From assembly GCF_000250985.1 (NCBI RefSeq), contig NW_013524651.1, positions 1 through 64,000 of the forward strand: a stretch of 64,000 nt of DNA, written 5' to 3'. Source of the DNA: Nematocida parisii ERTm1. Taxonomy: Eukaryota; Microsporidia. The translations under genes and the position numbers were made by a program. Of this stretch, positions 3,533 to 62,421 are shown one piece after another. Positions within the stretch are counted from its first letter, which is position 1. Every line of letters begins with the position of its first letter. The notes under the pieces are model-generated. The model did not search any database. It had not been told where the DNA came from and saw only the letters and a program-made list of their open reading frames with translations.

Positions 3533-3542
3533 TTCGGGTTAT
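3533..3542. promoter_or_regulatory. ATAACCCGAA motif copy
   Basis: Exact TTCGGGTTAT on the + strand, 184 bases upstream of the start of the 940-residue gene. Function unknown; it is called a site because the 10-mer recurs 16 times exactly in the window. Confidence 0.55.
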
Positions 3543-4536
3543 TTGATTTTCTATTAACTTCTGTGCTCTTTTGTTTATAAACCTTTCATATATAAATTAT
3601 TTTAAAGTAGTAAATAGACACATTTTTACTAGAAAATTATAAACATAGAAATAAAATATACTGTATTAGAACATACTAAACACTTACAAAAATAACTTAT
3701 TTTGCATATGAAAAAACAAAAACTAGCAATTAAGAGCATATTCTAAGTAGAATCTTCGCACTGTCAACAGAAATAAACAAGAAAGTATGTCATTTGTGTT
3801 AAAGAGATTGCAGTCAAAAATTATAGCTTAAAGTAGGTTAATATAAAGAAACATTTATTTATAATAATAGTATACACCAAGATTTTTTATTAAATAGAAA
3901 AATAGAAATACTAAGTGAATAAATAAGATTTTTCAGAATATTTCTATGTATATATAGATAATTTAAAATTTATAGCAAATAATAACCAAGAATGTATTAT
4001 TAAAGTATAATTTATATGCTATTTAATATGAATTCGTGTATAAAAATTTTAACTTTCTGTGTATTATAAGACAGAAAAATAAAGAAGTACATTAAGAATA
4101 GTATAGCAAGGTAAATATATTTAAAATATTCATTAATAAATTAGATTACCTAAAATATAAAAAAAAATATAAAAAATAAAAATAGACAGAGAAGCAGAAT
4201 AGAATAGTAAATTTTCAGAAGGATGCATTAAACTAAGAAGAAAGACTTTTTAGTTTAAATTAGTATAGAAAAGAATGGTTTTAGTCCATTAGAAAAATTT
4301 AAACTAAGCGATAACCACAATTTAAATATAATTAATCCAGATTTATTAGGTATACAATATAGCTTTAAGAAGATAGAAGTGTTTATCCAGAGTTTAAGTT
4401 ATTTTGATATGAAGTTTGTTTTCTTTTCCTCTTCTTAAATGTGAACTATTATTTACCACAACCAAATCTGGATATTTATTTACTTTCCGAAGTCTTTATA
4501 TAATTTCTTGTTTTTGATAATCACTCGTCATGAACC

Positions 4537-4716
4537 TCAATCATCAATACTTAGCGCCAATGGCATCCCCTGATCATCACTAAACGCCACTCCTTTGATA
4601 ACAAAAGATTTATTCGTCGCATCTAGGATCATAGCGGGGAGAACGCCCCGGATGGCGATTATGAAATCCGTATGCGCAGAATAACAATAATGCCGTATAT
4701 TCCTAAGTAAAATTGT
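4537..4716 (-). other. G+C-rich island with an open 59-codon frame; gene remnant or structured RNA
   Basis: In 4521-4680 I count 75 G+C in 160 bases (47%), against far lower values in the surrounding DNA. On the minus strand one frame stays open for 59 codons to a TGA at 4537-4539, and reads like real protein: it contains RGVLPAMILDATNKSF and then GVAFSDDQGMPLALSIDD. It has no upstream Met, and an in-frame stop closes it at 4717-4719. It could be the C-terminal remnant of a lost or transferred gene. Alternatively the block may be a structured RNA: CGGGG at 4635-4639 pairs with CCCCG at 4646-4650, and GGAT at 4650-4653 can pair with ATCC at 4666-4669. I cannot name a family for either reading. 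Confidence 0.35.
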
Positions 4717-4784
4717 TCACAAGAAAACTACTATTCTTATAATTTAAATGTATCTTAAAGAACAGTACCTATGCCTGTGAGCTT

Positions 4785-4794
4785 ATAACCCGAA
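4785..4794. promoter_or_regulatory. ATAACCCGAA motif copy
   Basis: Exact copy just beyond the 3' end of the RecQ gene, between it and the G+C-rich island, so not in an obvious promoter. Confidence 0.5.
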
Positions 4795-7601: not shown

Positions 7602-7611
7602 TTCGGGTTAC
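7602..7611. promoter_or_regulatory. ATAACCCGAA motif variant
   Basis: TTCGGGTTAC, nine of ten bases, 179 bases upstream of the RecQ start, followed at once by a weaker ATCGGGTTT. Confidence 0.45.
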
Positions 7612-13833: not shown

Positions 13834-14541
13834 ACAGCCACTCTAGCTAATAAAGAATAAAGCCTAGTTTATATTTGTCTTTTGCTTGGTAAAGTTTATA
13901 CAAAATATGATTTCTGAACTTATAATATATTAGTATAGCACAGAAACACCAATTTTACAGTATTATACCAAATGCAGGGATCTTTTAATTTAAAGAATAT
14001 AACAAGGCATACAAGAGATTATATAAAATATTAAATATATAACCCTAAATTCTTTGCTCTGTTGCAGTATTATACATAATATACCAAAAACGCATTGAAT
14101 TTCATATTGCAATGCACTTCCAAATGCATTAAATAGATTCCAAAAGATATTTTTGTAAATGCATTAAAGTATTTTTTGGATATTACTTTCAACTAACCAC
14201 ATATACAAAAAATTCCAAAAAGAGCTAACTATCCCAACTAAATTAATATTTCCCTCAAGAAAAAACTCACATGTCCCAAAACACAATCCAAAATACACAA
14301 AAACACATAATTTGCAGATTATCTATATAGAAGTTTCGGGTTATAATTCATTGAATGCTTGTTAATCACTCTAACACCGGACCAATATTTTTATTTTTAT
14401 TCTAGCATGAAATAACACCAATAAATACTGCTTTCCTCGTATAATATTCTTGATTTTTCGAATACTACGCATCTATTTATAGTCTGAGCAATTCTTATTA
14501 TATTACCTATAATAAATAGACAAGTGGTAGTAATTCAAATA
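13834..14541. other. AT-rich intergenic with one motif copy
   Basis: Terminates the S2 gene (AATAAAG at about 13850) and leads the coiled-coil gene. It has one exact motif copy at 14335. No gene seen. Confidence 0.55.
14335..14344. promoter_or_regulatory. ATAACCCGAA motif copy
   Basis: Exact copy, 198 bases upstream of the coiled-coil gene start at 14542. Confidence 0.5.
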
Positions 14542-14880: not shown

Positions 14881-14890
14881 TTTTATTTGG

Positions 14891-15430
14891 ATGGAGTGGG
14901 AGGATGCAATAGAAAGAATCACAGAAAAAGCAAATAATATTGAAAGTGCACTGTCGCACAGCACGCGCACAGAGACACTTGACGCTCTTCTTTTAGAGCT
15001 TAGGCAGGACTTGACTACATACAAACACATAATTCAAAGCTCACCAAATGGAGAAAGAACGCTAGCGCAGCTGAGCACTCGAGTGCAGGCACTTAACAGA
15101 CGGGTTAACATAATGAAAATGTCATATAATGCAGAGAATACGAGAGAAAAGCATCGGATGCCGGATGAGGACTGTCATATAACCCGAAATACAGACAAGC
15201 TCAACAAATACATAAAAATTGCATCGCACTCCCTTAGCTCAATAGAGAAACAGCGTGGCATTCTTAAAGGCAGCAGAAAAAAGCTAGAAGACGGCTTGCA
15301 GTACTTAGGGTTGTCTGATAGAGTGATAGACCAAATATCCAATAGATATATCACCGATTACAGGATATTTAAAGCACTTACAGCTATTTTTATTCTTTTG
15401 TTCATATATGTATTCCTTCTTAGGAAGTAA
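14891..15430 (+). CDS. BOS1: Qb-SNARE of the BOS1/membrin family
   Basis: A vesicle-fusion SNARE of the ER-Golgi step. The C-terminal half has the membrin pattern: SLSSIEKQRGILKGSRKKL, then YLGLSDRVIDQISNRYITD, then a C-terminal membrane anchor at about residues 159-177 (ALTAIFILLFIYVFLLRK). This order, with LG-S-VI-I-R-D before the anchor, separates BOS1/membrin from GOS1. The N-terminal 90 residues form the helical regulatory part. At 179 residues it is shorter than yeast Bos1 (244). An exact ATAACCCGAA copy occurs inside the coding sequence (15179-15188), encoding H-I-T-R-N. SEC17 elsewhere in the window would disassemble such SNARE complexes. Confidence 0.85.
   Translation: MEWEDAIERITEKANNIESALSHSTRTETLDALLLELRQDLTTYKHIIQSSPNGERTLAQLSTRVQALNRRVNIMKMSYNAENTREKHRMPDEDCHITRNTDKLNKYIKIASHSLSSIEKQRGILKGSRKKLEDGLQYLGLSDRVIDQISNRYITDYRIFKALTAIFILLFIYVFLLRK
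15179..15188. promoter_or_regulatory. ATAACCCGAA motif copy inside BOS1
   Basis: One of only two exact copies inside a coding region. Probably incidental here, since the residues it encodes are in a variable part of the protein. Confidence 0.3.
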
Positions 15431-15586: not shown

Positions 15587-15596
15587 ATAACCCGAA
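15587..15596. promoter_or_regulatory. ATAACCCGAA motif copy
   Basis: Exact copy about 155 bases past the BOS1 stop; one of a cluster of six sites between 15179 and 16535. Confidence 0.5.
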
Positions 15597-15869: not shown

Positions 15870-15879
15870 TTCGGGTTAT
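15870..15879. promoter_or_regulatory. ATAACCCGAA motif copy
   Basis: Exact copy in the opposite orientation to 15587, between two convergent gene ends. Confidence 0.5.
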
Positions 15880-16445: not shown

Positions 16446-16466
16446 TTCGGGTTATATTCGGGTTAC
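16446..16466. promoter_or_regulatory. Tandem pair of ATAACCCGAA motifs
   Basis: TTCGGGTTAT at 16446-16455 and TTCGGGTTAC at 16457-16466, same orientation, one base apart. They lie upstream of the 79-residue gene. A variant, TTCGGGCTAT, follows at 16526-16535. Confidence 0.55.
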
Positions 16467-16638
16467 ATCGCACCACAGATACATTACATGTTTTCAAAGT
16501 AATTTCAAGTTATTACAGAGTGCATTTCGGGCTATATAAGAGCAGTAGATTTGCCCTATTAGTATAAACTAGGCTATTTATGCAATATAAATAAACTTGC
16601 GCCTGGAGGGAAGATATAATAATAGATCTATCTTTATT

Positions 16639-23031: not shown

Positions 23032-23631
23032 TTAAAAATAGAAAAGAAAATTGCTTAAATAGATTATATTTCGACACATTGCACAAATTGTTTTAAACTG
23101 GCTTGCTCTTTAACCCGAAAAAATTAGAAATCTTCTACCGCTAAGCCCATAAACACGTAGTTATATCTAAGTGGCCAGAAATTTTACAGACGCTCTTCTG
23201 TTTTCACTGAAATGCTGAATTAAAAGTATTCTGTCTTTATTTTTACACATTATTTTTAAAATACAGTTTTATTTATATTTATTGTTGCTAACAAATTAAA
23301 CCAAGATAAAATTTTATTAAACTAATTACTAATATATAGTCCCTTGGCAACATTTATTATAAACATAATAGTATAAATCCAGTTATTTCAGAATTCTTTT
23401 AAAAATCCTCCATATACGCTGCACACACTCTACTGGCACGAATACTGCACATACATGCCTAATCATTTGCTACTAAAAATAGATAGGGCTTCTTATTATA
23501 TAAACAAAGTCCAGCCGAAAATGCCCAGAACTTTTATTCATTTGTTTATATATTCTAGTAGACAGAGATTTCTTGTTCTTCAAATTATTATTTTAGAAAT
23601 ATAATATAATCTACTCCAGCGCCTGCTATTA
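23032..23631. other. AT-rich intergenic, no gene seen
   Basis: About 600 bases with one near-exact motif (23110) close to the SPT6 start and otherwise featureless AT-rich DNA. Confidence 0.55.
23110..23119. promoter_or_regulatory. ATAACCCGAA motif variant
   Basis: TTAACCCGAA, nine of ten bases, 79 bases upstream of the SPT6 start. Confidence 0.45.
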
Positions 23632-25265: not shown

Positions 25266-25272
25266 AAAAAAA
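25266..25272 (-). terminator. RNA polymerase III terminator of tRNA-Lys
   Basis: A run of seven T on the minus strand, starting two bases after the tRNA 3' end; the usual Pol III stop signal. Confidence 0.85.
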
Positions 25273-25273
25273 C

Positions 25274-25345: not shown

Positions 25346-25395
25346 ACATATATTAAATTAAACACACAACACGGCCTATACACAATATCCACCAC

Positions 25396-25640: not shown

Positions 25641-28600
25641 ATGAATCTTAATTATGTTATTTCTTTTATCTATATGTATATATTAGCATTTGCTAATAGC
25701 AAAAACCTTCTGCAGGAAAAGACAAGTTATGCTACAGAGGTTAAAGAAAATATGACAATGCCGCATGAAGCAACTACTTCCTATAATCCAATTTATAGCA
25801 CTGGTTATACCCAAGCCCCCACCCCACTATACAAGAAAGAGTCCATTACTTCTCCAGAATGTGCTGGATTCGAAACTATAGAAGACCATGATGAAGAATC
25901 TCAAAATATTTACAGCACAGAAACAGCAGAAAATACACATGAAAGAAACAAAAGATCTACCAATAAAAACAAAACGTCTAAAAAGCGAAACTCTGCAATA
26001 GCAAGCAAGAACACTAGGGCCGTGCCCGAAAAATCATTAAACTACACGAAAATTAATAAAATCCAAGAAGACAGACCACTGACCATGAGAAATATGCTTG
26101 AATACATAAAATCCAGCCAGGAATGCGCCTATACTCCCGAAAAAACAATTATATACCAGTCAATTATTGCGATTCCTAATGAGTTTTCCTCTTGGTATGG
26201 GTTCACTATTAAAGAAATGGTACATCCGGATCCGTCTATGCCGGCTATCAAAAATTATAGTTTTCTTAATGATGATATAGGCTCTTCTACCATACAAATG
26301 AAGTTTGACAAAAACCTAAAAGACAATACTAAAAACTGCTCTAGCGTTGTGATCAATGAAGACCGCAGGTATAAATATGAGCATGGCCATATTTTGGTGG
26401 ATACATTGTTTAAAAACGCTGGGATAGTTTCTTTCTACTCCACATCGCATGATTATATACTTCACAAAATTAAAGGAAGCAATGACCTAATCCTTACTAT
26501 TATTGATGCCTTTAACACAGATCACGTATTCCCTTTTGCGGTATCATTGTTGATTAAGGCGAATGGAAGTGAAGCGGCAGCATATTATGAAGTAAGCGCC
26601 AAGAAAAACTCGAAAAAAACTGTAATTAAGGTAAATACAAATAGTGAAACAGTATACGTTCTTAACTGGGCCAAAGTAGAAAATCAAAACCTATTAATCT
26701 GTAATTCTCCTGTGTTTGTGACGAGTAGACAATCTAAGAATAGACAGTTAAAAAGCAATTTAGTGCACATCTCTACAGAAATAGTTACACATACACCTAC
26801 TAACGCAAAAATGCATTCTTCTGAGTTTATTCAAACTAGCAATATCGCTATAAAGACAAAACTTGCATTTGACCCGAAAACCACCCTAATTATGGAAAGT
26901 TATAACCCAACAGCACCACTATCCTTCTCAAAAAAAACGCCGAAAATATATTTTGTACAAATCTCTAGAAATATAAATTCTATTAATATAGTTAGTATTT
27001 GCTCGTACACCCCGCTGGTAAATGATTTTAAGGAAAGTCCTATAGAGCACAGATTCTCGCAAGAGCCCATAAAACCAGATGGAACAATTACGGCAACTAT
27101 ATACCAAAGACTTAGTGGCCAGCTATCTTATATAAAAGAATCCAGCCAGGAAGATATTTGGACTGCAGTTAAAACATATATAAATAAGATATATGCAAAA
27201 AGAGATCCCAATTCTTCTGATCCATACCCAGAAGTCAGTGGGCTGCGGATTATATCAAAAGATGATTTAAAAATGGCTTCACAGACCCGCATGCGCAGGC
27301 TAAACATATACAAGTCACTGCGCCAAATCAAAGAATACTCTTTTCTGTTGGAAATTTACAAGAATAACCCGAATATAACCCAAAAAAATCCATTTAGAGA
27401 CAACATAAACCCAAACGCCATGAACAGAAAGCACTTAACTGTGATGGCCTCAATACTTGGTGACAGTTCTTATAATCAAACTAGCTATTCATCGAAAAGT
27501 TCAATGATAAAAGGACAGCTTAATTTTCCTCACACTGACTACTACAAATCACTGTTTAAGCAGTACTCTATTGGAGTTTCTAATATCAGAAAGTATAAAG
27601 AAATCAATTTTAAAAAAGCTGGGCTTCCTCTTTATGCAGACAAAATGATTTTCTACCTAACAGATGAAAGAGACACATACTCCCCTGGAATTGCCAGCTG
27701 GACTGACATTCTATCATACCGACAAATAACCCTGCAGGATGAGCCATCTGAAGATAATATAAATCTGAAAATTGATACCAGCAAAATGTACATGAATCTA
27801 ATAAGCGTCCATCTAAGCTATAAACTTATGCATATTGTGAGCGGCATGCTTGATCTGAATGGAATAGATAACTCATATGCCATAATGAATATGCATAAAA
27901 GCGACAGTGCGACATACCTTAATCTGAGAAAGCCATATACGATAAGTTTTCTTTCTCTAGCCCAAAAGGTTTTTGACTCAAAATACAACGCATTCAATGA
28001 GTTTGTCTATTCACTTAATCAAACACTAGCCGCATATTCATTTGACAATCTGTCTGGGTTTATTTCTAAAACCATATTAGATGAGAGCTTAGATGAAAAA
28101 AACATAGTAAATCATACTATTGACTCCAATTCTAATAATGACAACACTCCGTCTAATAGTGCAGTGAATGAGATGCTGATAGTGGACCGATTGATTACTA
28201 TTATTAAGAAAAGCATTCACATTATGGATGACTTTACAAACCAATACCTTACGCCCCTTTCCTCTGTGACCAATACGCTTACATCACCAGAGTATACCAT
28301 GGAGATACAAAAGCTCCTCCATATGAAAAAAAGTCTTTCTAATAATATTTTGGAGTCTTATATTCTTACTGCAAATAATTGGGACATAACTCAAAATATC
28401 AGAAATGTTATAAATAATACAATAATTCCGCTTCAGAACAATCTGTTCATTATTACCAATGGAGTCCTCAACCTAATCTCAAAAGATATTTACAAAAGAC
28501 TGGACGCCACCGATGGATCTCAGGATGCCGCAATCCATGACTTTATAAAAATCAGCAGCGAATGGACTTTTTCAGAGTGGCAGAGAAAAGTCAAAGATTA

Positions 28601-33518: not shown

Positions 33519-33528
33519 TTCGGGTTAT
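33519..33528. promoter_or_regulatory. ATAACCCGAA motif copy
   Basis: Exact copy in the two-kilobase gap, far from any start codon. Confidence 0.45.
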
Positions 33529-33913: not shown

Positions 33914-33936
33914 ATAACCCGAAGATATAACCCGAA
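33914..33936. promoter_or_regulatory. Tandem pair of ATAACCCGAA motifs
   Basis: Exact copies at 33914-33923 and 33927-33936, same orientation, separated by GAT. This 13-base spacing differs from the 11-base spacing of the 16446 pair. Confidence 0.55.
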
Positions 33937-34900: not shown

Positions 34901-34953
34901 GGCTATTTTCCTGTTTTAGAAAAATATATTTGCTAATTTTATGCGCCCCTGTA

Positions 34954-36000: not shown

Positions 36001-36030
36001 ATATTTTATTTCTTCTTTTACTTGCAGAAA

Positions 36031-38656: not shown

Positions 38657-39309
38657 ATACACTCAATATACAATCTATTGTTGCTTCTAACCATAATTTC
38701 TATACTGTGCATCTCAATATAGCCCGAAATCCAAAAAACCGCAGTTTAACCCTGATGCTTAGTAAATCTTAGGTATTATTAAAATGCATATATGCTGCTG
38801 TTTGTATTTGTAAATAGCATTTCTTTCTTTATGCTATTATATTTTTAATGCAGAATAGTTACTTGTGTGCATATCATATTATAAATATAAAAAAGCTATA
38901 TGATAAAGAATCTTAATGAGCTTTAAATATATAAAACCCTTAGAGATATATCTAAGTATTTATAATTATTATAGTTCTCATATGGCCGATCATGGCACAA
39001 CTAGTAAGCATTAAACAAATATGTTCAACACATTTTTACATTATCAGATAGGCGCAGGGGAGCATTAAAAACAAAATTATTTATTCCTTAAAAATACAGA
39101 TTTGTTAATAAATGTGAGCTAATACTATTTTTATCACACTTCACTTGAAATACCCCAAAATTCAAAATCTATTTCACAAATAATATAATACTATTTTATA
39201 TTTATAATACTGCACAGAACCAAAAATAAATTCAATTTTTGGATATTCTATGGTGCATTTTTATAAATTTCTGCTCGCTTGCATAATTTGTTGGATCAAT
39301 TCTTCTAAA
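38657..39309. other. AT-rich intergenic, no gene seen
   Basis: Convergent gene ends, with one motif variant, ATAGCCCGAA, at 38719-38728. Confidence 0.55.
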
Positions 39310-40011: not shown

Positions 40012-40025
40012 TTGTTTTTGTAAAA

Positions 40026-40262: not shown

Positions 40263-40999
40263 CTACTAGATATAATTTAAAACAGATTAAAGCTTAAAAC
40301 GTGCTTTACACTTTCAGATCTTTAAATAGGAACAATTAATCATTATATATAAATTAAAATTATGCATGTGTGTGCATACTCTGAAAAATCTTTAAGAATA
40401 TGCCATAAGAAGATTAGATTTTAAGCTGCTCTAGTGGTTAACTGGCTTCTTATAACTCGAAAATGCAGATATTCATTTGTCACTTGTATATTTAAGTAAT
40501 TGCTGCTCTAGTAAACTTCTGTGATTTTTTAGCAATAAAAAAGCAAATTTGATGGCAAGCCTCATTTATTTTCGTATTGTTTATACTATATTAATATTAT
40601 AATGGCAATAAATGAAATTAAATATATATTATCTGTTTGTATAGCATATTTTTATTTCTTTTATAATATATGAATATATTTATCGCATGGTTTCTTATTT
40701 TAATGTATTCTTTATTTTTCTTTCTCTTTATAGATGGCAATTAACCATTTGACGTATATTATAACTGCTCATAAATATTAAATGTTTATATATCCAAAAA
40801 TCAGCTGATACACATTTATAAACACTGTGTTTAATTGAAAATACACAGGAAGTATTTCTTATAGCAGCAGTAAATAGGCAGAAAATTAAATATACGCTCG
40901 TGTATTTATCCTATAGCACAGCATGCTAGCAATAAATTCATTTAATGGCCCTACCCCGCAGCCTGTTAGTTTATAATCATTTTAGAGCGGCAGTAAATA
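40263..40999. other. AT-rich intergenic, no gene seen
   Basis: About 740 bases; convergent gene ends. Nothing beyond AT-rich words. Confidence 0.55.
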
Positions 41000-41614
41000 T
41001 TATTCCACCTGCTGCCGAATTAGTTTATTTAGTATTTTTGGCGAGACTGCGCCTTTTTCTATAGAAATGTCTATTATTTTATTATTTTCAGATGTAATGC
41101 ATATAATAGCATCTGACGCTGCATACTCCTGGAGTATTGGTGATATGAAAAACTTGTCATCTACCAGGCCATATGTAACTGTTTTTTTGTTTATTTTCCG
41201 CTGCTCGGCCCTGTAAATGTTTTTGGCAATTGAATGTCTGTTTTTAAATAGCTCTTTTATGTCTGGAACAGTCAGCAGTCTTTGTGCCTCTGCCAAACAA
41301 GCCTGCACTATTTCTTGAACTGCCCCCGTGTCTACAAGCACATCCACGGAAACATTCGCAACTACCTCGTTATTTAGTTTTATCTTTTGCGCATTTATTG
41401 GAGCAGACTCTTCTGTTTTTATTCTTATGCTTACAATTGCAGAGCTTCCATTTTTGGATCCTTTCATTGCTATGTCACCATAGTTCTCTATTTCCTCTAT
41501 AGTCACCTCAGAGTCCTTTGGATAAAATCCATTCTCATTTACCAACGCTCTGAAGAATCCTCTCTCACTTGTACCAATAACTGTTCTACTACATCCTTGC
41601 CGAGAAAGTTTCAT
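41000..41614 (-). CDS. RNase PH-fold protein, probable exosome ring subunit
   Basis: A 204-residue protein whose layout fits an RNase PH-fold subunit of the RNA exosome, the 3'-5' RNA decay and processing complex. It has an early strand pair with GSSAIVSIRIKTEES (the GSA.V.IG.T-like block). A middle VSVDVLVDTGAVQEIVQACLAEAQ follows, like the usual V-V-DG-A helix. The late FISPILQEYAASDAIICITSENN is like the DPT-EE-D.. strand. Phosphorolytic residues are not visible, as in most eukaryotic ring subunits. Which of RRP41/42/43/45/46/MTR3 it is I cannot say. The family call is moderate. A motif copy lies 70 bases upstream. Confidence 0.5.
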   Translation of the reverse strand: MKLSRQGCSRTVIGTSERGFFRALVNENGFYPKDSEVTIEEIENYGDIAMKGSKNGSSAIVSIRIKTEESAPINAQKIKLNNEVVANVSVDVLVDTGAVQEIVQACLAEAQRLLTVPDIKELFKNRHSIAKNIYRAEQRKINKKTVTYGLVDDKFFISPILQEYAASDAIICITSENNKIIDISIEKGAVSPKILNKLIRQQVE

Positions 41615-41934
41615 AAAAATCTTTTATGGTACACCAAAGCTAAGAACCTCTTGAAATATGCAAAAAGCCTCAAAAAGGTGTAAATAACCCGAACTCTTTA
41701 GAACATCTCTACATGCAATAGATAACTCTAAATTTTAGGCCAAAATGCACAAAATATTACAGCAATCAGCTTTAAATTTCAGAAAATATAAGTAGCCATA
41801 AAATAGTAATATACTCCCGAAGCAATTAGCAATATCTGAAAATATCCAGAAGTAGAATTTGTTTTTACATTGTATATCATACATGCGATCACAACAGCGA
41901 ATTTCTTTCTGTATCCTTTCTGTTATTAATTATT
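41615..41934. other. Short intergenic with one motif copy
   Basis: Contains the motif at 41684 and no gene. Confidence 0.55.
41684..41693. promoter_or_regulatory. ATAACCCGAA motif copy
   Basis: Exact copy 70 bases upstream of the RNase PH-like gene start, the closest exact copy to any start codon. Confidence 0.55.
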
Positions 41935-42762
41935 TTATGATGGTGGATAATTGTTGTATAGTAAATACGCCCCCCGAACATTTCCAAACATGGCTGATAT
42001 AAGCATATTTCTATCAAGCTCTCTATCAATATTCAAGCACTTTCCTATTGTTTCCTTAATATAGTGGAGAATTGCTGCATATGTACACTTTGCTGTCTCC
42101 AAAGTCACCTGTTCGCTTAATTTGTACTCAAATGACCCCTTTTTAAGTCTATTGTGGAGGTCTTTCACACTTAAAATCCTTTTTATCTTGCAGCACAGTA
42201 CGTTATAGTTGGCGGAGAATAGAGAGATAAGTTGCGGCCTATTACTCACAGCACTAGATAAATCTTCAGGGGTTCTTTTAAATAGTGAATATTGCTGATG
42301 TGTCTTTGTGTTGTATGCAGGATCATCTAAGTCTTTTTTTATATCCATAAGGAATTGATCCTTTAACGCCCCCTTTAACTTTAATACTTTTGACCTGCTC
42401 TCTGACTGCACATTCTTTGCACTTTCTTGGCTGGCAAGAGATATAAAATGAATAATTAGTCTATTATATGCCACGGGATCTATTCCCATCTCATTCACTC
42501 TTGTTATAATTTGTTGTTTTGTGTGCTTTTTTGTAACAACATCCCTTATAAGACTTTTCATCTGGTCTGTTTTCTCTACTGGTATGTACATAGAAATAAT
42601 CTCATATATATTTACGTCAGATGCTGGCGTGGAAAGATCTCTTTCATTCGGCAGATATTCGCTCTCTCTTACAGATATTTCAGAGTGGGCCTGCTCGTGC
42701 TTTCCAAGAAAGAAATCCTCACTTTCTTCCACGTTCTCCATCTCCTCCTTTTTTATGTTCAT
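41935..42762 (-). CDS. Unknown helical protein
   Basis: A 275-residue protein with an acidic N-terminus (EEMENVEESEDF). It is helical throughout, with a compact segment near residues 50-110 (YEIISMYIPVEKTDQMKSL, then TKQQIITRVNEMGIDP). No signal peptide or membrane span. I do not recognise it; the pattern would suit a nuclear complex subunit. The start follows AATTTTTGTTTTA, the common T-rich leader. Its divergent neighbour, the SKN7-like gene, begins 413 bases away. Confidence 0.65.
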   Translation of the reverse strand: MNIKKEEMENVEESEDFFLGKHEQAHSEISVRESEYLPNERDLSTPASDVNIYEIISMYIPVEKTDQMKSLIRDVVTKKHTKQQIITRVNEMGIDPVAYNRLIIHFISLASQESAKNVQSESRSKVLKLKGALKDQFLMDIKKDLDDPAYNTKTHQQYSLFKRTPEDLSSAVSNRPQLISLFSANYNVLCCKIKRILSVKDLHNRLKKGSFEYKLSEQVTLETAKCTYAAILHYIKETIGKCLNIDRELDRNMLISAMFGNVRGAYLLYNNYPPS

Positions 42763-43175
42763 TAAAACAAAAATTAAACTTGCCCTCTACTTATTTTCTT
42801 CCTTTCTAACTCTATTTATACTTTATAAAACAATACGGAAGCTCATTTTATTAACATATAAAAATATAAATAATATATGCAACATACCATGTGTTATACT
42901 GTTTCTATGGATAAATGCCTTATAATGAATTGTTATTAAACACCAGGGATGTTCTAATATATCCCAATCTGTAAAGATTGGTTGATTTAATGCTATTCGA
43001 ACTTTCTAAGTGACATATTTAATTTATATAAAGACAACACATAGTAATTAATTAAAAGAGGTCTTCATAGCAAAAAGTCAATTCTTTTTACAGAATTAGA
43101 ATAAATATTTTCTATACAAAATAAGACTGATTAAAACCTGTCTATATTAAAGGTTCTATTAGAAAAAGAAGCAAT
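42763..43175. other. Divergent promoter region, no gene seen
   Basis: AT-rich, no motif copy, between the 275-residue gene and the SKN7-like gene. Confidence 0.5.
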
Positions 43176-44111
43176 ATGAAGGTTCTGAAGACCGCATCAC
43201 AATCAACAGAATTTATAGAAAAGTTGTACAGCATGCTGGAAGATGTTCAGAATCAACCGTACATTCAATGGACAGGGCAGGGGACAAGTTTTCTCATAAT
43301 AAACCCGACGGATTTTGGCAGGTGCATGCTAAACAAGCACTTTAAGCATGGAAACTTAAGCTCATTTGTTCGGCAGCTAAACAAATATGACTTTCACAAG
43401 ATAAAGAGCCAAGAGTGTATTTTAAAGCAGTTTGGGCAGCAGGTGTGGGAGTTCAAGCACAATTATTTCCAAAGGGGGCGAGACGACATGTTAAAGCATA
43501 TAGTGCGGAAGAAAAGCAATGCAGACAAGCGGTTTAAGACGTCTCGAGAGATGAGCTCGGACAATTTAGAGGCCTCTAACAGAATACAGTCCCAGATTAT
43601 TGGAACACTAAAAATGCTTACTGTGCATTTTCAAGTGCTAGTAGAGGAAGTAAATGATCTGAAAAGAAACCTGAGCAAGAAGGACGTTCTCTTCAAGGAG
43701 AATGTAAGTGCTCTTGTTGCCGAGGATAACGTTACGTGTAGCTCCTATGCAGGTGCAATTCTTCGAAAAATAGGATGCTCTGCAGACATTATCGAGCAGG
43801 AGAAGGACATTCTTGTAAAATTGTCCGAAACCAAGTACGATATTGTTTTTCTGAGTCTTCAGATTCCAAGCATACAAAAAATTCTCTCTGCTTTCAGACA
43901 GTATGACGAAATAACGCCGGTTATTCTGACTATCGACGGGCTGGCCCAGGAAGAGTACATTTCTGTTTTGGGCGCGGGAGCAAATGACATTTTGGTTAAG
44001 CCATACCATCAGAATGCAATGGTTCAGCTTATGATGAAATACTGCTACAACCAAAGAACAAATGCTCCGATCCATACAAAGCCGATCTCTAACAACCTTT
44101 CTATTTGGTAG
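43176..44111 (+). CDS. SKN7: SKN7-like factor: HSF DNA-binding domain plus degenerate receiver
   Basis: A nuclear stress-type transcription factor. Residues about 11-112 form an HSF-type DNA-binding domain (IQWTGQGTSFLIIN, then KHGNLSSFVRQLNKYDFHK, VWEFKHNYFQRGRDDML). A coiled helix follows at about 131-168. Residues about 178-290 form a response-regulator receiver fold, the domain order of yeast Skn7 and fission yeast Prr1. The acidic pair is present (E183-D184), as are the conserved Thr (T252) and Lys (K275 in DILVKPY). The phospho-acceptor Asp is replaced by Ser227 in YDIVFLSLQIP, where Skn7 has MDIVMP. So the domain cannot take phosphate in the usual way. Its 311 residues are half of Skn7's, lacking the Gln-rich tail. 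No histidine kinase is in the window. Confidence 0.88.
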   Translation: MKVLKTASQSTEFIEKLYSMLEDVQNQPYIQWTGQGTSFLIINPTDFGRCMLNKHFKHGNLSSFVRQLNKYDFHKIKSQECILKQFGQQVWEFKHNYFQRGRDDMLKHIVRKKSNADKRFKTSREMSSDNLEASNRIQSQIIGTLKMLTVHFQVLVEEVNDLKRNLSKKDVLFKENVSALVAEDNVTCSSYAGAILRKIGCSADIIEQEKDILVKLSETKYDIVFLSLQIPSIQKILSAFRQYDEITPVILTIDGLAQEEYISVLGAGANDILVKPYHQNAMVQLMMKYCYNQRTNAPIHTKPISNNLSIW

Positions 44112-44861
44112 TGGTACTGCATGTATAAATACAACTCACATATTTGAATGTTTTATTTTATTTATACATTGATTCTATAAATTAAACCTGTATTCTTTTG
44201 TATTTTAAAGTATACACTTTCATTTTATTTTAAATTTTAAATAAATCAAGGCTCCTAAACAAATAGGCTTTGCCAGAATTGCAGTTTTAAAAGATGAGAC
44301 TTTCTTCATATACAAACAATCAGCCAAAGTCCACAATGCTGTTGTGCATAGCTGTTTTTTATGTAAATTAGTATTTTTATTTACAATTTGCATAATTGAT
44401 TATTTAATTAATAACCCGAAACTAGTATATTTAAATTCTTGTTTATTAGAAATAATGTATGCAGATCACATTCATTGAACTAAGTATTTCTGTATGAGGA
44501 AACTCTGTCTATAACACAACTGTTCCTTTAAATTATAGTTTAAATGCATTTATTAGTATAGAGAAACAATTGGCATGTGTAATATATCAACTAAAATATG
44601 CTTTAATTCCAACCTCTAACAAAATTTACACTTTCTACTTTTCTATAAAGCAAACTCTAATAGAAGAACAGCTATATTGGGCACACATAATACCAAAACC
44701 CTATATCAACAAATTGCTCTAAACTAAAAAACACATAGTACTAAGAGTATGCTAAGAAAAGCAAAAAAAATTGAAAATACTGAGCTGGCATAGAAAGGAA
44801 TAAATACAAGAAATGCACTTTATTTTACAGTATATTTTGTGTCGAATCAAATGCAACCTTT
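44112..44861. other. AT-rich intergenic with one motif copy
   Basis: About 750 bases between convergent genes; exact motif at 44411. No gene. Confidence 0.55.
44411..44420. promoter_or_regulatory. ATAACCCGAA motif copy
   Basis: Exact copy between two convergent 3' ends, so not a promoter of either neighbour as annotated. Confidence 0.45.
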
Positions 44862-45770
44862 TTATACAGAGATAGGAGTGCGTACTTTGTTTAGGAATCT
44901 TGGTTTAGAAGCACGGTAGAAGCCTTCAACTGGGTCTTCGGGATCTTCGGGGTCTTCAGGATCTTCTGGGTCTTCTGGGTCCTCTGGGTCTTCGGGATCT
45001 TCTGGGTCTTCTGGGTCTTCGGGGTCCTCAGGATCTTCTGGGTCTTCCTCGTCTTCTGGTTCTTCCTCGTCCTCTGGGGTGGCTGCAGCAAGAATAATAA
45101 CACCTGAATCATAGATGTTAATAAGCCCACTTCCTGATGGGATTCTGGCGAAGATTGTGATATCTAACTTGGTAGAGTTGTATGGGAACAGAGTCAAAGT
45201 AAATCTGCTTGTTGGGCTCTCAATTAATCCACCTTCTTCCATTCTACTCAAGGATGGAATAAATCTTGGTCCTGGGGTTATTCTCCAAATAAGACCTGTC
45301 TCATTGGAAACTACCTCATTAACACTGGAGCCTTCAGATGCATCTCTGAACACAAGCTGGAGGTCCCTAATTCTTAGCTGCTCGTCGGAGGTGAGGTATG
45401 CCATTTCTGAGAATGCAGATGGCCCAGCTGGAGATTCTAAGGTTACTTCAAACTTAGCCTCAAGGTATGGAGATCCTCCCATTCCTGCAATGTCTGTATG
45501 AACTGATGTGGTTCTTGTAGCAGTACCTGCTGCTGCACCATCAACCATTATGTCATATGTATCAATAACTTCAGTAGGCTTGATCTCTCTCTTTGAGAAT
45601 GTCATGTTTCCTTTCTGAATAGTAGTGTTACCAACTGGCCCTGACTCAACAATAATTGCATTAGGTCCTTTGGAAAATTCAGGAGAGAATACAGTCTCCT
45701 GAATGTAGTTAACTGCAAGTACTTGTGATGCAAGCATAGCAATCAAGGTGATGAACTTCATTACAAACAC
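44862..45770 (-). CDS. Secreted protein with acidic EDP repeats
   Basis: A 302-residue protein starting with a signal peptide (MKFITLIAMLASQVLA, from Met4; the true start may be 45761). A beta-rich region of about 220 residues with Asn-linked glycosylation sequons (NTT, NMT, NET, NST) follows. Thirteen Glu-Asp-Pro repeats come next, and then a basic tail (FYRASKPRFLNKVRTPISV). I do not recognise the family. The coding sequence is richer in G and C and better codon-adapted than the other secreted orphans, which suggests high expression, as for a spore wall or polar tube component. That role is inference. The acidic repeat followed by a basic end could mediate self-association or calcium binding. 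Confidence 0.85.
   Translation of the reverse strand: MFVMKFITLIAMLASQVLAVNYIQETVFSPEFSKGPNAIIVESGPVGNTTIQKGNMTFSKREIKPTEVIDTYDIMVDGAAAGTATRTTSVHTDIAGMGGSPYLEAKFEVTLESPAGPSAFSEMAYLTSDEQLRIRDLQLVFRDASEGSSVNEVVSNETGLIWRITPGPRFIPSLSRMEEGGLIESPTSRFTLTLFPYNSTKLDITIFARIPSGSGLINIYDSGVIILAAATPEDEEEPEDEEDPEDPEDPEDPEDPEDPEDPEDPEDPEDPEDPEDPEDPVEGFYRASKPRFLNKVRTPISV
44931..45047. repeat. Thirteen 9-base units encoding Glu-Asp-Pro
   Basis: Thirteen in-frame 9-base units (plus-strand form NGGGTCTTC with third-position variants). The variation is almost all silent (GAA/GAG, GAC/GAT, CCA/CCC/CCT), so the peptide repeat is kept while the DNA has drifted. Three further degenerate units follow at 45048-45074. 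Confidence 0.95.
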
Positions 45771-46219
45771 AACGCAACCATATATTTATAGTTTTTATTT
45801 AGTTCTAGAGGCGCCTATTTGAATAATTATCCTAGATAATATACCTGAAATAAGGATTATTTATTTTTAATAGACCAATCAGACCTGGCCAAATTTAAAT
45901 AGCCCTTTCGAATTATTAAATATTATATGCAAAAAATAGTAATTCTATTTTCTTTATTATAAGCTAGGCAAGAAATACAGAAATAGCCTGCCACTGAGAG
46001 TTGCTATAAACCAAACACACCTGGGGGCTTCTTCTCTTTGCAGTGCTATGGCATAGATAAACAGAATAAAGGATGTATAGGGACAAACAACTCCTATGCG
46101 CATACTAAGGGTATGATTTCTAGTTGGTTTCAGACTGGTCTAATAGACACATAAGTACATTTCAGGATATAAACATAAGAACTAATATTATAAATTGGTT
46201 TAATAAGTATACTTTTATT
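45771..46219. other. Intergenic, no supported gene
   Basis: About 450 bases. A 48-codon hydrophobic minus-strand frame (45957-46103) is discussed among the rejected items. Confidence 0.5.
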
Positions 46220-47086
46220 CTACAGTATATCATTGTTGGGGTCAATTGCAACTTGCGCATCATGCATGGCTATTGTGACTTCTGATGAAAGCTTGTTTGT
46301 TCTCTTGAAGTACTCAATAGTCTTTTCAAGGTCTGCCTGGTCTGATGATCTTTTTGTTTTAACATCAAGCATTCTATATGCAATCTGCGATTCTGTTCTT
46401 GTGTCATCCATTTGGTTTAGCAGCTCATACGCATCCTTGGTTTTCTCTAAAATAATCCCACATAAAACACCAAGAAACAGAAAGCTTGTTTTTTCTAAAA
46501 CATGGCTGATTTCAGATTTGTCATTTGATAGAGCTTTATACAAATCAAATGCCTTTTCATAGTTCTTGAACCGAATCTCACTAGCTGCACACTGTATCAA
46601 AATGTTTCTTTTGTTTATGTGCATCTTTGATCTTCCATACACATCTGCAGCTCTGTAGAAGTATTTCAGAGCTTCTTTCTCTTGATCTGTCTCTCTGAGC
46701 AGCCCCCCTATTTTAGCTGTAAGAGAGGCAACCACCGAAGTAGCCTCTGTGCTCATTGATAGTTCATTTAATGCCTTCTTGTATACAGAAATGGCCTCCT
46801 CTTTCTTTTCTGCAGCCAAAAGTGATTCTGCGCTTTTTTCAAGATACGAAAATATTTCATACTTGTTGTTTTCTTCTTTTGTGTCTATAAGAATGTTTGC
46901 AGAGGAAGAATACATCTCAGCCGCTTTCTCGTGCCGGCCTGCCCGAGAGTACGCCTGCCCCGCTTTTTCGTATAAAAGCACTGCTTTGTCTGTGTCATAG
47001 CTCATTATCATTTTAATAATAAAATTGCTTCTTTTCCTAGTATACTGGTCTGCCTCTCTTTCTAATTCTTCGGGGGATGCGTGCAT
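46220..47086 (-). CDS. SEC17: Alpha-SNAP (SEC17)
   Basis: An adaptor that recruits the NSF/Sec18 ATPase to used SNARE complexes to take them apart. The 288 residues form TPR-like helical hairpins: YEKAGQAYSRAGRHEKAAEMY, AISVYKKALNEL, EALKYFYRAADVYG and YEKAFDLYKAL, in the SNAP order. The C-terminal end is acidic with a terminal Leu (DPNNDIL), as expected for the NSF-stimulating tip of the family. Length matches yeast Sec17 (292). It would act on SNAREs such as the BOS1-like protein in this window. The stop is followed directly by AATAAA (TAGAATAAA). Confidence 0.88.
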   Translation of the reverse strand: MHASPEELEREADQYTRKRSNFIIKMIMSYDTDKAVLLYEKAGQAYSRAGRHEKAAEMYSSSANILIDTKEENNKYEIFSYLEKSAESLLAAEKKEEAISVYKKALNELSMSTEATSVVASLTAKIGGLLRETDQEKEALKYFYRAADVYGRSKMHINKRNILIQCAASEIRFKNYEKAFDLYKALSNDKSEISHVLEKTSFLFLGVLCGIILEKTKDAYELLNQMDDTRTESQIAYRMLDVKTKRSSDQADLEKTIEYFKRTNKLSSEVTIAMHDAQVAIDPNNDIL

Positions 47087-47500
47087 CGCTTTTTATGAAA
47101 ATAAAAATAAAACAAATAAAGATAAAACTCTATAACATAGACATAACTACTAAAAGTATGCAGCAAACTCTTAGACACTCCCACTCAAACTGAACTAAAT
47201 ATTTTCATATAATTGCTATAATCTCACATAATATCAAGTGCTTTGCTCATTGAATTGCTTGCTTATAAAATACCCACAGTATTCTTATATATTTTTATTG
47301 ATGTGTATGTTGGGCTATAAAAAGAAAGATCACCTCCTCTAGGATTTCTATTGTTTTATAATTTAAATACAACTATTAACTCTTTCTACTACAAAGAATG
47401 AGTCATCTTTTTGTGTTTTCTGTTATTATTTTGGATTATATAAAAATAGAAAGAGAAGTAATGTATTTTCTATATAAATGTATTTTGCCAAGATGTATTA
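47087..47500. other. AT-rich intergenic, no gene seen
   Basis: About 410 bases between the SEC17 start and the next minus-strand stop; no motif. Confidence 0.5.
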
Positions 47501-53620: not shown

Positions 53621-54538
53621 ATGGCAGATAGTAGTTCACATGCAATAAAAGAAAGAAAACATCTAGAAACAGACATGCCCCTTGCTTTCAACACACAGTT
53701 AGAACCACAAGAAGAGAACACCAAGGGCGCCAACTCTACGGGAATTCTACAAGCTTTAGCTGCGCTAAACTTTAGAGCAGGAAGAGCCACACTTACATTA
53801 AATTTAGAGACAATTACAGCGCTCTATCCGAAATTATGGCATAAACTTAATCCAGAGACCCGGATACTACTCCTACAAGAGGAGCTGAACAGACGTTCTG
53901 GCTCAATAGAAGCAGCCATGGCTAACCAATTAGCAGAGCTTATCTCTAATGTTAGCTCGACCCAGCTGCAAGAGTGGCCAGAAGAGTTGTGGCATAATGC
54001 TTGGCAAATAGTCTTGTCAATCTCGGAAGGAAATAGGGTCTCCGCTGTCGCAAACCTTTGGTGTTTCAGAGACTTTGCACAGATTACAATGAGCCGTGGT
54101 TATGAAGAATGGTGCTACATTATGATAGGGCAGACCGAAGCACCATTCAAGTACTTGTTTCATGAGATAGCCTTAGAATTTGCATTAAAAGAGACCATGT
54201 ACCCCATTAGATTTACAGACGTGTGGAATATGGGCAAAGGAGATCGAGAAAATGCAAATAAAAATCTTCTATTGGAGTGCCAGAGATTAGACAGACTGCT
54301 AAGAAAGAAAGCTGGTCGGATAATTCATAACCAAAAAAAAGAAAAAATCCACCGAAATTCAAACAGCAAACATAGAAGGTTTTTTAGCAATTGCTACCGA
54401 TGTGGTAAGAGGGGACATAGGGCAAGAGAGTGCCGTGGCGAAATTCAACAAGATCGAAGAAAAGACTACATGAATAATAACAAATGTTCATGGCAAGGAT
54501 GGAACCTTCCTAAAAAGGACGGTTCACAGAATGACTGA
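53621..54538 (+). CDS. Gag-like protein with CCHC zinc knuckle
   Basis: A 305-residue protein with the organisation of a retrotransposon Gag. The N-terminus is polar and disordered. A helical capsid-like region of about 170 residues follows (LYPKLWHKLNPETRILLLQEEL, then VANLWCFRDF), then a basic linker (KKEKIHRNSNSKHRRFF). One perfect CCHC zinc knuckle lies at residues 258-271: C-x2-C-x4-H-x4-C in CYRCGKRGHRAREC. A basic tail ends the protein. The frame is fully open, while the pol remnant just downstream on the same strand is full of stops and has lost most of its length. This is either a recently dead Ty3/gypsy element whose gag has not yet been hit, or a gag kept by the host. A TATA box 35 bases upstream and the lack of LTRs fit the second view. 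Confidence 0.8.
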   Translation: MADSSSHAIKERKHLETDMPLAFNTQLEPQEENTKGANSTGILQALAALNFRAGRATLTLNLETITALYPKLWHKLNPETRILLLQEELNRRSGSIEAAMANQLAELISNVSSTQLQEWPEELWHNAWQIVLSISEGNRVSAVANLWCFRDFAQITMSRGYEEWCYIMIGQTEAPFKYLFHEIALEFALKETMYPIRFTDVWNMGKGDRENANKNLLLECQRLDRLLRKKAGRIIHNQKKEKIHRNSNSKHRRFFSNCYRCGKRGHRARECRGEIQQDRRKDYMNNNKCSWQGWNLPKKDGSQND

Positions 54539-59032: not shown

Positions 59033-59471
59033 TATGGGGATGCTACAATCGCTACCACAATAACAATTCTACCCTAAATATCTATCTAAATATTCAAATA
59101 AATCTATTCATTAAATCCGCTACTTTTCTTTAAATAATATACAAACAGTATTTATACACAGTTTTCCATTAATAATAGAACGCAGGCAATAGATGTTTGT
59201 TTCTCTTAAAGGGAATTGTGTAATTTTCAGGCTGTGTTTGTACTATATAGTTGTTTCTGTTTCTTAGTAATTGCCATGTGGTTAGCCGACTTCTCATTTA
59301 TTATTCTTTGATCCTGAATCCTTATAATATAACCACAGATCTTATATTGGGTTGAAAATTTTACTAATTATGCTTTAGTTTTTTCTAGAATGCATTAGTT
59401 ATATCAATACAAAAAGACTAATAAACAGTATTCTTTGTTTTAACTAGTTTTTATTAATGTTTATGATATAT
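59033..59471. other. AT-rich intergenic, no gene seen
   Basis: About 440 bases between the convergent RNR2 and trehalase genes. Confidence 0.5.
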
Positions 59472-61472
59472 TTACTTAAAATTATTATCAAATATATAGT
59501 ATATCCACTGGGCTACCCCAATACTCCAGCCAAATCCTTTCTGCACCTTATACTCGCCAGTGTTCTTGGCTTCATACTCTATCTTCTCTGGAAGATTGCC
59601 GTGCGCTATGTAATACTCATTCATTTTGGCCATATAGCTCTGTGCTGTGCGCTGTGCAAGATCTATATTATTTGATCTAATCAAATATTCTATTGTTAGA
59701 TGCACCAGAGGCGGCCATACGTTTTTGCCATCCCATTGGTCTTTTATTTCATTCTGATGTATTAGCGCGGCCTCTGCAGTTTTTTGAAGCATGCCGCATA
59801 GGCTGTCTTGTGCACTTTCTTCTGTATATTCTCTCGTGCTTGTACATGGTAGCATAACATCTTCTGATATCCAAATATTTTTCGCATTTCTGCTAAGAAT
59901 GTGATTATTTGGATCATTTACTATGCCCATATACAGCGGATGTAGGTCACTATGGTAGAATACACTGTCTTCTCTTTTCTTATAATGGTAGTCGTTTTCT
60001 TTTTCCATTAATATTAAATCTCTCCATCTTGTGTGCTCTGCATCCCACATTAAATCATCAATGCATGAAGACAAGCTGTTTGCAAGATTTTTCCAGTATA
60101 TATTCTGTTCAACACTTTTGTACTCATTAATATTGTATATTTCTGCTAGAATGTTAAAATTCTTTACAAGTATGCTGTTTAAATCTACTGGTATGACATT
60201 ATGTGTATTTAAAAATCCATACATTTTTGTATCCGTGTTGTATTGTCTCCACCTGCTGGAAAAGTCCCATCCAGACTCAGTGCTAGCTGTTATATGTGTG
60301 TAGTATTCAAATGGCCCGGCGGATTTATTTGTTGTCTGATAGTTTTCATTTGAAATTAAGTCGGGAATAAGCATTTCTACCCTTGGTATGGCTGTCTTGC
60401 TACCATATCGAAACATTCTCCGGCTTTGGCCGCTTTCATCTTTAAACTCAACGCATCTGCTGTCTACCCAGAATTTCATTTCTTTGTAAAGCGCATCTAC
60501 CTTCTCCTTCGTAAGTTGTTTTTCTAAGTCATCCAGGTATGCTGGCTGGTATTCTTTAATCAATGGCTGAGAAACTACTAGGTTCATATAATCTGCACTA
60601 GTCTCTGGGTTTGATTTTTGGCTCGCTGCTCTTGAATGGTTTGATACAATGTCTTTAAGCTTTTTAAACTCATCCATTGAGTCAAGCAGTATTTGTGCAA
60701 AGTATGGGGGCTGCGACCTGTTTATATAGTACCATCGCGTGCCATTTGGAATAAACCCAAATGCATTTATTTGGTCTATGAAGTTACTAGTCATACCATC
60801 AACTGCTTTTTCTTTTCCACTAATAAGCAGTCCTTTTGCCATCCAGAAAAAGTCCCAATAGTAAGCCTCTTGAAACCTTCCTCCCGGCACTACAACATCG
60901 TTTTTCTGTGGTATTTTGCTGTCAAAGTACTCTTTGGGCTCTTTTTCTCTTAGATCCTTTGTCAAGCAGTCCCAAATTTTCTTTATCCCAATGTTCATTT
61001 TTTCATAGCAGTTTATACTTTCATCTGAATCCTCTGTGGGCTTCTGTGCAGAAATAGTATTTTCCGGCAACTTGAAGTAATTAGTGTATAGTTCAAGTAT
61101 TTTATCAGTTTGTTCTGATACATTCTTTTCTTCCATGTCTATATCTTGATGGTATGTCAACACCTGCTCATACGGCCTATTAGATACAAGATCAGGAATG
61201 GTCTTTGGATCCTTCCTTCCCGTATAGAAACATAAATCTACAAATAAATTCCAAATCTCATTGGTTGTCTCAGTTTGGTATATCCTGGGATAGCTTTCAG
61301 ACATGCTTTTTGCTTTTTTATAGAGATGCGTGTGCTCTGACTCTATAAGCGATGATTTAAGTATTTTTTCTGTACTTATTTCGTTCTCTGTGTCTGCGCA
61401 CATTACTAGCCCCCCAAGGCACATCATTGCCATTGGCATATAAAAAAGTTCGGCAAGATAAGCTTTCTTCAT
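59472..61472 (-). CDS. Secreted trehalase, glycoside hydrolase family 37
   Basis: Hydrolyses trehalose to two glucose units. Signature 1 is PGGRFQEAYYWD (residues 196-207). The catalytic acid is D403 in SGWDFSSRW. Signature 2 appears as QWDGKNVWPPL (from 579). The catalytic base is E640 in GEYKVQKGFGW, though the usual run of glycines before GEY is reduced to NTG. A hydrophobic N-terminus (residues 8-26, ELFYMPMAMMCLGGLVMCADT) looks like a signal peptide, so the enzyme probably works outside the cell or in a compartment. In microsporidia, trehalose breakdown is tied to spore swelling at germination, and a secreted form could also use host sugar. 666 residues. Confidence 0.93.
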   Translation of the reverse strand: MKKAYLAELFYMPMAMMCLGGLVMCADTENEISTEKILKSSLIESEHTHLYKKAKSMSESYPRIYQTETTNEIWNLFVDLCFYTGRKDPKTIPDLVSNRPYEQVLTYHQDIDMEEKNVSEQTDKILELYTNYFKLPENTISAQKPTEDSDESINCYEKMNIGIKKIWDCLTKDLREKEPKEYFDSKIPQKNDVVVPGGRFQEAYYWDFFWMAKGLLISGKEKAVDGMTSNFIDQINAFGFIPNGTRWYYINRSQPPYFAQILLDSMDEFKKLKDIVSNHSRAASQKSNPETSADYMNLVVSQPLIKEYQPAYLDDLEKQLTKEKVDALYKEMKFWVDSRCVEFKDESGQSRRMFRYGSKTAIPRVEMLIPDLISNENYQTTNKSAGPFEYYTHITASTESGWDFSSRWRQYNTDTKMYGFLNTHNVIPVDLNSILVKNFNILAEIYNINEYKSVEQNIYWKNLANSLSSCIDDLMWDAEHTRWRDLILMEKENDYHYKKREDSVFYHSDLHPLYMGIVNDPNNHILSRNAKNIWISEDVMLPCTSTREYTEESAQDSLCGMLQKTAEAALIHQNEIKDQWDGKNVWPPLVHLTIEYLIRSNNIDLAQRTAQSYMAKMNEYYIAHGNLPEKIEYEAKNTGEYKVQKGFGWSIGVAQWIYYIFDNNFK

Positions 61473-62421
61473 TTCAGATAATAAATAAACATTATTATAT
61501 AAATAGTTTTCTGCTTTTGATTAGACGTATAATAATTTTTATATGACTGCTCTATATATATAATAGGCGAAATAGACACATTCTCTTTGTGGACCATTAC
61601 TTTTAATTGGTGTGCTTTTAATCTAATTCTCTTTACCATATGTCACTTAATAATTGACAGATTCTTTAATATAAATCAATTCACGCATATATTTTAGTTG
61701 TTTTAAAAATAAGCACTTCTAGTAAATAATTAAGATGTTTATTAAACAATTCTGTCTTAGTACTATAGGAATATAGAGTAGAAATAATTAAAAATATTTT
61801 GAAGTATTTCGGGTTATAATGTATTTATGTGTTTAAGAATAATTAAATGGCTTAATCTGCTTTCTTGCTGTTCTTATAATAAATCTAAATTCTACAATTA
61901 TAAATTTAGAAATAAAATATGTAAACCCTTTACTTTTATTTTATAAATATCTGTTTATTCACTGAGAAATTCCATATTAAATAGAATTAAAAGACATGTA
62001 GTGATTCTTGGATAATAGAAAGAAAATGTTAAAAAGTAAATAGAAAATTACTGCATAAATAGAACAAATATTCATAGGATATTGAAAGAATTGGTTCAAA
62101 TTATTTTGAAGAATTGTCATTTTTACTTATGCTGGCTATTCTATTTCTAGATATTTAAGTTGTAAAATTAGAAAAGTAACTGGTTGTAATATTTCTGGTA
62201 TATATAATTTTATAAAAAATTAATATTATTTAGAATTATAGACTCTCTGTGGTATTTAACACTGCATTTTAATATATTGTGTGTGCTTTGGTAGTGCATA
62301 TATGACGAATAAGCTATGTTGTTTTTATATTGTGTGAATTTTCAGTAAGATAAATTTATCTACATGAAAAATAGTTGGAAATTTAGAAATGTTAACTGGA
62401 ATATCATTTATTTAGGGAAAG
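61473..62421. other. AT-rich intergenic with one motif copy
   Basis: About 950 bases with no gene; exact motif at 61808. Confidence 0.55.
61808..61817. promoter_or_regulatory. ATAACCCGAA motif copy
   Basis: Exact copy 336 bases upstream of the trehalase start. Confidence 0.5.

Follow-up and report, generated by a model that had tools for sequence, protein, structure and literature searches.

Species of Nematocida are microsporidian parasites of nematodes, and the means by which closely packed genes are held apart in very compact eukaryotic genomes are poorly understood. Among the general regulatory factors of yeast, Reb1 marks promoters. Rap1 and Tbf1 are described in excerpts of a review (PMC6410037) as nucleosome-excluding factors with insulator capacity. 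In microsporidia, CCC-like signals sit immediately upstream of the coding start, according to PMC2803860. Here we examine a 10-base word, ATAACCCGAA, in the genome of Nematocida parisii ERTm1, beginning with the window, by which we mean the whole 64,000-nucleotide stretch analysed (NW_013524651.1, positions 1 to 64,000). The window is the first 64 kb of contig C6 of an assembly of 3,978,357 bases in 11 contigs, which we designate by C numbers. Judging from its abundance, anatomy and placement, we tentatively take the word, at somewhat less than an even chance, to be recognised by a sequence-specific protein that binds double-stranded DNA and would, as a general factor, mark the boundaries between genes.

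That the word recurs is confirmed. All 16 exact copies listed by an earlier sequence-only reading of the window are there, nine on the plus strand and seven on the minus strand, compared with 0.05 expected from dinucleotide shuffles, and none of 100 shuffles reached 16 or more. With one mismatch permitted the window contains 28 matches (2.95 expected), 12 of which are variants, including all five that the reading had named (7602, 16457, 16526, 23110 and 38719). Its estimate of A+T near two thirds was also right (the G+C content is 35.8%), and the copies at 15179 and 27364 are, as it claimed, the only two within genes, scored as open reading frames (ORFs) of at least 100 amino acids (aa). The sites in the window are:

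3533..3542, minus strand: exact site, tandem spacer
4785..4794, plus strand: exact site, tandem spacer
7602..7611, minus strand: variant with one mismatch, GTAACCCGAA
11373..11382, minus strand: exact site, divergent spacer
14335..14344, minus strand: exact site, tandem spacer
15179..15188, plus strand: exact site within the V-SNARE gene 14891-15430, at residue 96, the start of the Pfam match
15587..15596, plus strand: exact site, convergent spacer
15870..15879, minus strand: exact site, convergent spacer
16446..16466, minus strand: head-to-tail pair at 11 bp spacing in a convergent spacer, exact site 16446-16455 plus variant 16457-16466
16526..16535, minus strand: variant with one mismatch, ATAGCCCGAA
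23110..23119, plus strand: variant with one mismatch, TTAACCCGAA
25396..25405, plus strand: exact site, divergent spacer, 50 bp from tRNA-Lys (25272-25346)
27364..27384, plus strand: head-to-tail pair at 11 bp spacing within ORF 25419-30002, exact site 27364-27373 plus variant 27375-27384
33519..33528, minus strand: exact site, tandem spacer
33914..33936, plus strand: head-to-tail pair of two exact sites (33914 and 33927) at 13 bp spacing, tandem spacer
38719..38728, plus strand: variant with one mismatch, ATAGCCCGAA
41684..41693, plus strand: exact site, tandem spacer, ~70 bp upstream of ORF 41000-41614
44411..44420, plus strand: exact site, convergent spacer
61808..61817, minus strand: exact site, tandem spacer, ~340 bp upstream of a trehalase gene
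Starts 3248, 14039, 27375, 40452, 55095, 55230 and 55883: seven further one-mismatch variants beyond the five named

The genome-wide count that the reading had proposed gave 700 exact copies (344 and 356 on the two strands), compared with 8 copies (3 and 5) of the reversed word. In a 264-kb set consisting of the window and C1:1-200000, 63 copies were observed where an order-3 Markov model predicts 0.64 (98-fold), the highest observed-to-expected ratio of all 10-mers having at least 16 copies. The consensus letter far exceeded the alternatives at all ten positions in this set, the commonest single changes being G-to-A at position 8 (14), A-to-T at position 10 (9) and C-to-T at positions 5-7 (6, 8 and 6). 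Three other strong word families that were checked (TTAGTCTA, TGTAATAAGT and CTTCTGGTTG) are unlike ATAACCCGAA in that they lie mostly in local arrays; those of TTAGTCTA and TGTAATAAGT were seen at C1 ~32700-35500, 41200-47300 and 198500-199000. A dispersed repeat family sharing longer flanks, which had been put forward as the outcome that would explain the copies away, was rejected because the copies have no common flanks (at most 0.24 bit per flank position across 63 oriented sites).

Genome-wide, TAACCCGAA forms 35 head-to-tail pairs at gaps of 0-6, of which 17, 11, 6 and 1 fall at gaps of 0, 1, 2 and 4, and close neighbours stand 9-13 bp apart in the same orientation. Same-orientation pairs at gaps of 7-36 number 11, inverted pairs at gaps of 0-20 were absent from the genome in both possible arrangements (0 and 0), and none of the 35 listed pairs belongs to a direct tandem of three exact units. 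Around the 63 sites there were 18 same-strand degenerate neighbours (at least 8 of 10 letters, each pair of exact sites being scored twice) at offsets of 9-13 bp, with ~0.05 expected per offset, and a single opposite-strand neighbour within 40 bp, at offset -31. Chance tandem duplication was rejected as the origin of the pairs: 14 of the 47,262 comparable 9-mers of the region have an exact tandem copy, a generic rate of ~0.03%, versus 3 of 70 (~4%) for the 9-mer of the element. Words spanning the unit junction showed no enrichment once doublets had been masked, which indicates that the ends of the element are fixed. A head-to-tail spacing of about one helical turn is what cooperative binding on one face of the DNA would be expected to give.

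Placement relative to genes was analysed in 284 kb of the 3,978 kb, a chosen set that combines the window with the start of C1 and a single stretch poor in sites. Coding sequence (CDS) and spacer classes were assigned from ORFs called mechanically, with minimum lengths of 80, 100 or 150 aa, rather than from annotation, and the three cut-offs agree save for the density in divergent spacers. At 100 aa the 61 collapsed exact sites were distributed as 15 in 201,480 bp of CDS (0.74 per 10 kb), 24 in 41,034 bp of tandem spacer (5.85), 10 in 18,944 bp of divergent spacer (5.28, dropping to 3.76 with the 150-aa cut-off), 12 in 19,231 bp of convergent spacer (6.24) and none in 3,311 bp of edge regions. 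The like densities in the three spacer classes back the suggestion of the sequence-only reading that the word is not a simple promoter box. Within tandem spacers the sites were spread evenly along the length (Kolmogorov-Smirnov p 0.85), and exact sites shared the orientation of the genes in 9 cases and opposed it in 15 (p 0.31). We also used broad variant sets picked after the one-mismatch counts had been made, with 15 words for orientation and placement and 9 words for spacer occupancy and short spacers. Spacers of less than 400 bp make up 17.7% of spacer length and held 25 of 78 broad-set sites (p 0.0015), and permuted control words fell there in 9 of 45 cases. At least one broad-set site was present in 59 of 129 spacers, compared with 52.4 in simulations and just over their 95% range of 46-58.

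A factor that separates genes in all arrangements would fit this placement best, and a promoter-only or terminator-only role would fit it less well. The putative bound factor would keep nucleosomes off a short stretch and would separate adjoining transcription units, such that read-through is blocked and the next gene is left accessible. Transcription overrun is reported for another microsporidian in PMC2803860, and boundaries would therefore be useful. Both the identity of the binding protein and the effect of binding are things we infer. A search of the genome for Myb domains returned ten matches, spread over six genes. These encode a SNAPC4/Myb-like protein with three repeats, a protein with a Pfam Myb_DNA-bind_7 match that we take to be Bdp1-like, a protein with SWIRM and Myb domains on C4 (~418311-421442) that is presumably Swi3/Rsc8-like, a two-SANT protein, a protein on C2 and a protein on C8. 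The C8 protein (345 aa, gene ~145078-146115) has a single C-terminal Myb domain and is identical to N. parisii NEPAR06_1596. Its gene has six core sites, three of them exact, within ~370 bp past the stop codon and a further core match 45 bp ahead of the ATG, whereas the densest 450-bp window within the 284 kb held four core sites and the Myb loci counted other than those on C8 and C4 held zero or one. This weak evidence points to the C8 Myb protein, faintly TRF-like, as a candidate reader of ATAACCCGAA; more weakly still, it might be distantly TRF/Tbf1-like and control its own gene via the surrounding sites.

Several results weigh against a boundary factor or against this candidate. In tandem spacers bounded by ORFs of at least 150 aa, 17 sites of the broad set had the orientation of the genes and 33 the opposite (p 0.033), and hence there may be a mild orientation preference. 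The enrichment in short spacers was weaker for exact sites (14 of 45, p 0.02), and the spread of sites among spacers was indistinguishable from random (dispersion 139.8, simulated 92-177). ORFs (185 kb) contained 16 exact sites, far over the 0.64 given by the Markov model for all 264 kb; 12 of these 16 lie in gene orientation and are split 7 and 5 between the two stop-free frames, so the constraint is on the DNA rather than on the protein. The densest cluster observed lies upstream of the Swi3/Rsc8-like gene, with seven core sites within 450 bp, four of them 62-114 bp before the ATG, and dense clusters are therefore not private to the C8 gene; moreover, the two loci were non-random picks. The C8 protein clears the Pfam Myb cut-off narrowly (26.8 bits vs 24.4), its nearest solved structure, a fish TRF, is a weak match (E 0.047) and its structure model is poor, with a mean predicted local distance difference test (pLDDT) score of 44.5. 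A fold search with that model gave no match at E 0.001 or better, and relatives beyond N. parisii were not found by a search that requires shared 5-residue words.

The spacer-class densities support neither a promoter-only nor a terminator-only role. An ordinary promoter element, bound by a transcription factor with many targets, would account for tandem-spacer sites close to start codons (e.g., 59, 74, 107, 109 and 123 bp upstream), for the four sites just before the Swi3/Rsc8-like gene and, with ORFs of at least 100 aa, for the exact sites in spacers of less than 400 bp, of which 5 are divergent (in 4,179 bp), 7 tandem (in 6,124 bp) and 2 convergent (in 3,675 bp). However, it would not lead one to expect convergent spacers to match divergent ones in density, or the start-codon side of tandem spacers to go unfavoured, and we consider it quite unlikely. 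A site that acts solely in transcription termination or as a polymerase roadblock, with no role in promoter opening, gains from the sites in convergent spacers, 5 of the 12 exact ones being less than 100 bp from a stop codon. Yet divergent spacers, where a terminator is not needed, are about equally dense and tandem sites show no bias toward the stop-codon side, which makes such a role very unlikely. The least probable of the functions weighed is that of a replication-origin, cohesion/condensation or nuclear-tethering element. It would suit sites that are mostly intergenic in every spacer type and that are more clumped along C1 than random. There, at least 155 sites among the matches listed (pooled same-strand matches that we infer to be all of C1) gave a 50-kb bin variance of 19.3 against 7.4 simulated, with p 0.0105 for the largest gap. 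Sites are dense over the initial 400 kb and the final 50 kb, and a 20-kb stretch of the site-poor middle (82% ORF) contained four core matches but no exact site. At about one per 5.7 kb, however, the sites are dense for origins, given the typical spacing of these.

How sites arise could be followed in duplicated families at contig ends, where gains were polarised and changes counted by eye from alignments. The site at C3:457 differs by four changes in six bp from the C4 sister copy (95.7% identical), with which the older C5, C6 and C2 copies agree on the ancestral state. The site at C5:268 is absent from seven other copies and, relative to the inferred ancestor, required three core changes and a fourth next to them. 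At C1:952709 a second unit was acquired via six changes and a 1-bp loss, ~13 bp being replaced beside an existing unit that is common to the copy at C1:917931. Two changes sufficed for the gain at C1:916189, and the unit at C1:917931 is one base off the copy near C5:6.7k, which could be a decayed site. We excluded C1:145637 because its C2 and C5 copies (~70-80% identical) are too diverged to polarise. The paralogs of the five sites differ by substitutions throughout, with a gap of 1 bp at most. Point mutation alone should favour gains of one or two changes; three multi-change gains among five suggest either strong selection or a clustered mutational process, and five cases are too few to choose between these. 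Alignment of C3:1-2000 with C4:1-2000 also showed, near 475, a 12-bp word that apparently overwrote a diverged neighbour copy, possibly a template-switch mutation. As this second clustered change lies near C3:457, local template switching is plausible there.

These gains bear on a further explanation, that a mutational process (e.g., telomerase or template switching in repair) writes the copies, which would then be short interstitial telomere-like repeats having at most a secondary function. The clustered substitutions at C3:457, C5:268 and C1:952709, with lengths almost unchanged, fit such a process, as do close pairs that are head-to-tail only, sites that are even along spacers and uneven along C1, and the frequency of C-to-T and G-to-A, which rank with the commonest single-mismatch variants. 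The insertion of telomere sequence at breaks is described in excerpts of the review PMC6410037. However, the gains replace sequence rather than insert it, the fixed ends and the lack of triple exact tandems among the 35 listed pairs tell against a writing process, and the gains at C1:916189 and C1:917931 need only one or two changes. Short-spacer enrichment would likewise be unexpected of neutral copies, and the contig ends examined have no array of the element's own unit, nor were TTAGG or TTAGGG arrays available for comparison. Taken together we regard this explanation as unlikely. A compound view, that existing sequence, 6-13 bp at a time, is overwritten with TTCGGGTTAT by a templated or repair process, which thereby spreads a protein-binding boundary element without insertion, to be read by a species-restricted, fast-evolving Myb protein, has a chance as slim as that of the promoter element. 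The boundary factor site remains the reading that we prefer.

Other features of the window were noted in passing. An HSF-type DNA-binding domain fused to a response-regulator receiver domain (43176-44111), presumably Skn7-like, seemed unusual for a reduced microsporidian. It closes a run of transcription-related genes (30655-44111) that comprises KIX, Med7-like (below cut-off), MADS box, SAGA-Tad1-like (below cut-off) and HSF proteins. The ORF at 53621-54538 has a CCHC zinc knuckle and is gag-like, perhaps retroelement-derived, and a possibly secreted protein has a Pro-Glu-Asp repeat close to its C-terminus, encoded by a nine-base tandem array (44930-45065). A short dispersed repeat (23272-23360, ~75-95 bp) recurs several times in C1:1-200000 and once close to the beginning of C10 (~82-92% identical). 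The ribonucleotide reductase small subunit is 99% identical to that of Nematocida sp. AWRm78 and 91% to that of N. ausubeli. A search for RNA families matched the tRNA only.

The sequence-only reading had likened the core to a telobox. In letters the resemblance holds (AACCCGAA vs AACCCTAA), since seven of eight core letters agree, and the head-to-tail arrangement is also like that of telobox/TTAGGG-factor sites. However, the word has G for T, the core is not the telobox AACCCTAA, and the true telobox is rare (7 copies of AACCCTAA vs 85 of AACCCGAA in the 264 kb). No TTAGG arrays (one mismatch) or TTAGGG arrays (two mismatches) were found in the assembly, and no telomere array of the element's unit was found in ten contig-end stretches, three of which begin with N. 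As for likeness to telomere factors, the only such protein noticed was the C8 Myb with its weak match to fish TRF (E 0.047). Short interstitial telomeric sequences share with the element a G-rich telomere-like strand (TTCGGGTTA), head-to-tail doublets and dispersed copies, but the element has fixed ends and mostly single units, and in paralogs it replaces sequence rather than being inserted. We found neither arrays or fragments of variable phase nor, in the paralogs of five sites, the gap that an inserted unit would leave in related copies. The fixed ends and replacement without insertion thus contradict insertion of telomere fragments. The microsporidian CCC-like and AAATTT-like start signals, as given in PMC2803860, resemble the word in being a C-triplet signal of the same phylum; ATAACCCGAA, in contrast, is spread evenly over spacers and does not sit directly upstream of start codons.

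The main text of PMC10393165 contains none of the regulatory terms sought, and no description of the word was found in the literature searched, letter searches being limited to 8-base pieces and AACCCG. One 700-copy word in spacers of every orientation provides a testable handle on microsporidian chromatin organisation. The candidate reader offers a first protein to try and C. elegans a laboratory host, and young duplicates that gained the word let one watch the origin of a binding site. The remaining comparison is with the sites of the yeast general regulatory factors Reb1, Tbf1 and Rap1, although ATAACCCGAA presumably matches neither the Reb1 nor the Tbf1 consensus. Tbf1 marks promoters, according to excerpts of PMC6410037, whereas ATAACCCGAA is as frequent in convergent spacers. 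Promoter-containing spacers were not enriched over convergent ones, and the trend in short spacers involves few sites (2 convergent, 5 divergent and 7 tandem). What ATAACCCGAA has in common with the yeast sites is that each is a short fixed site with many genomic copies, and as expected of a general regulatory factor it is one fixed short word, strongly over-represented genome-wide.

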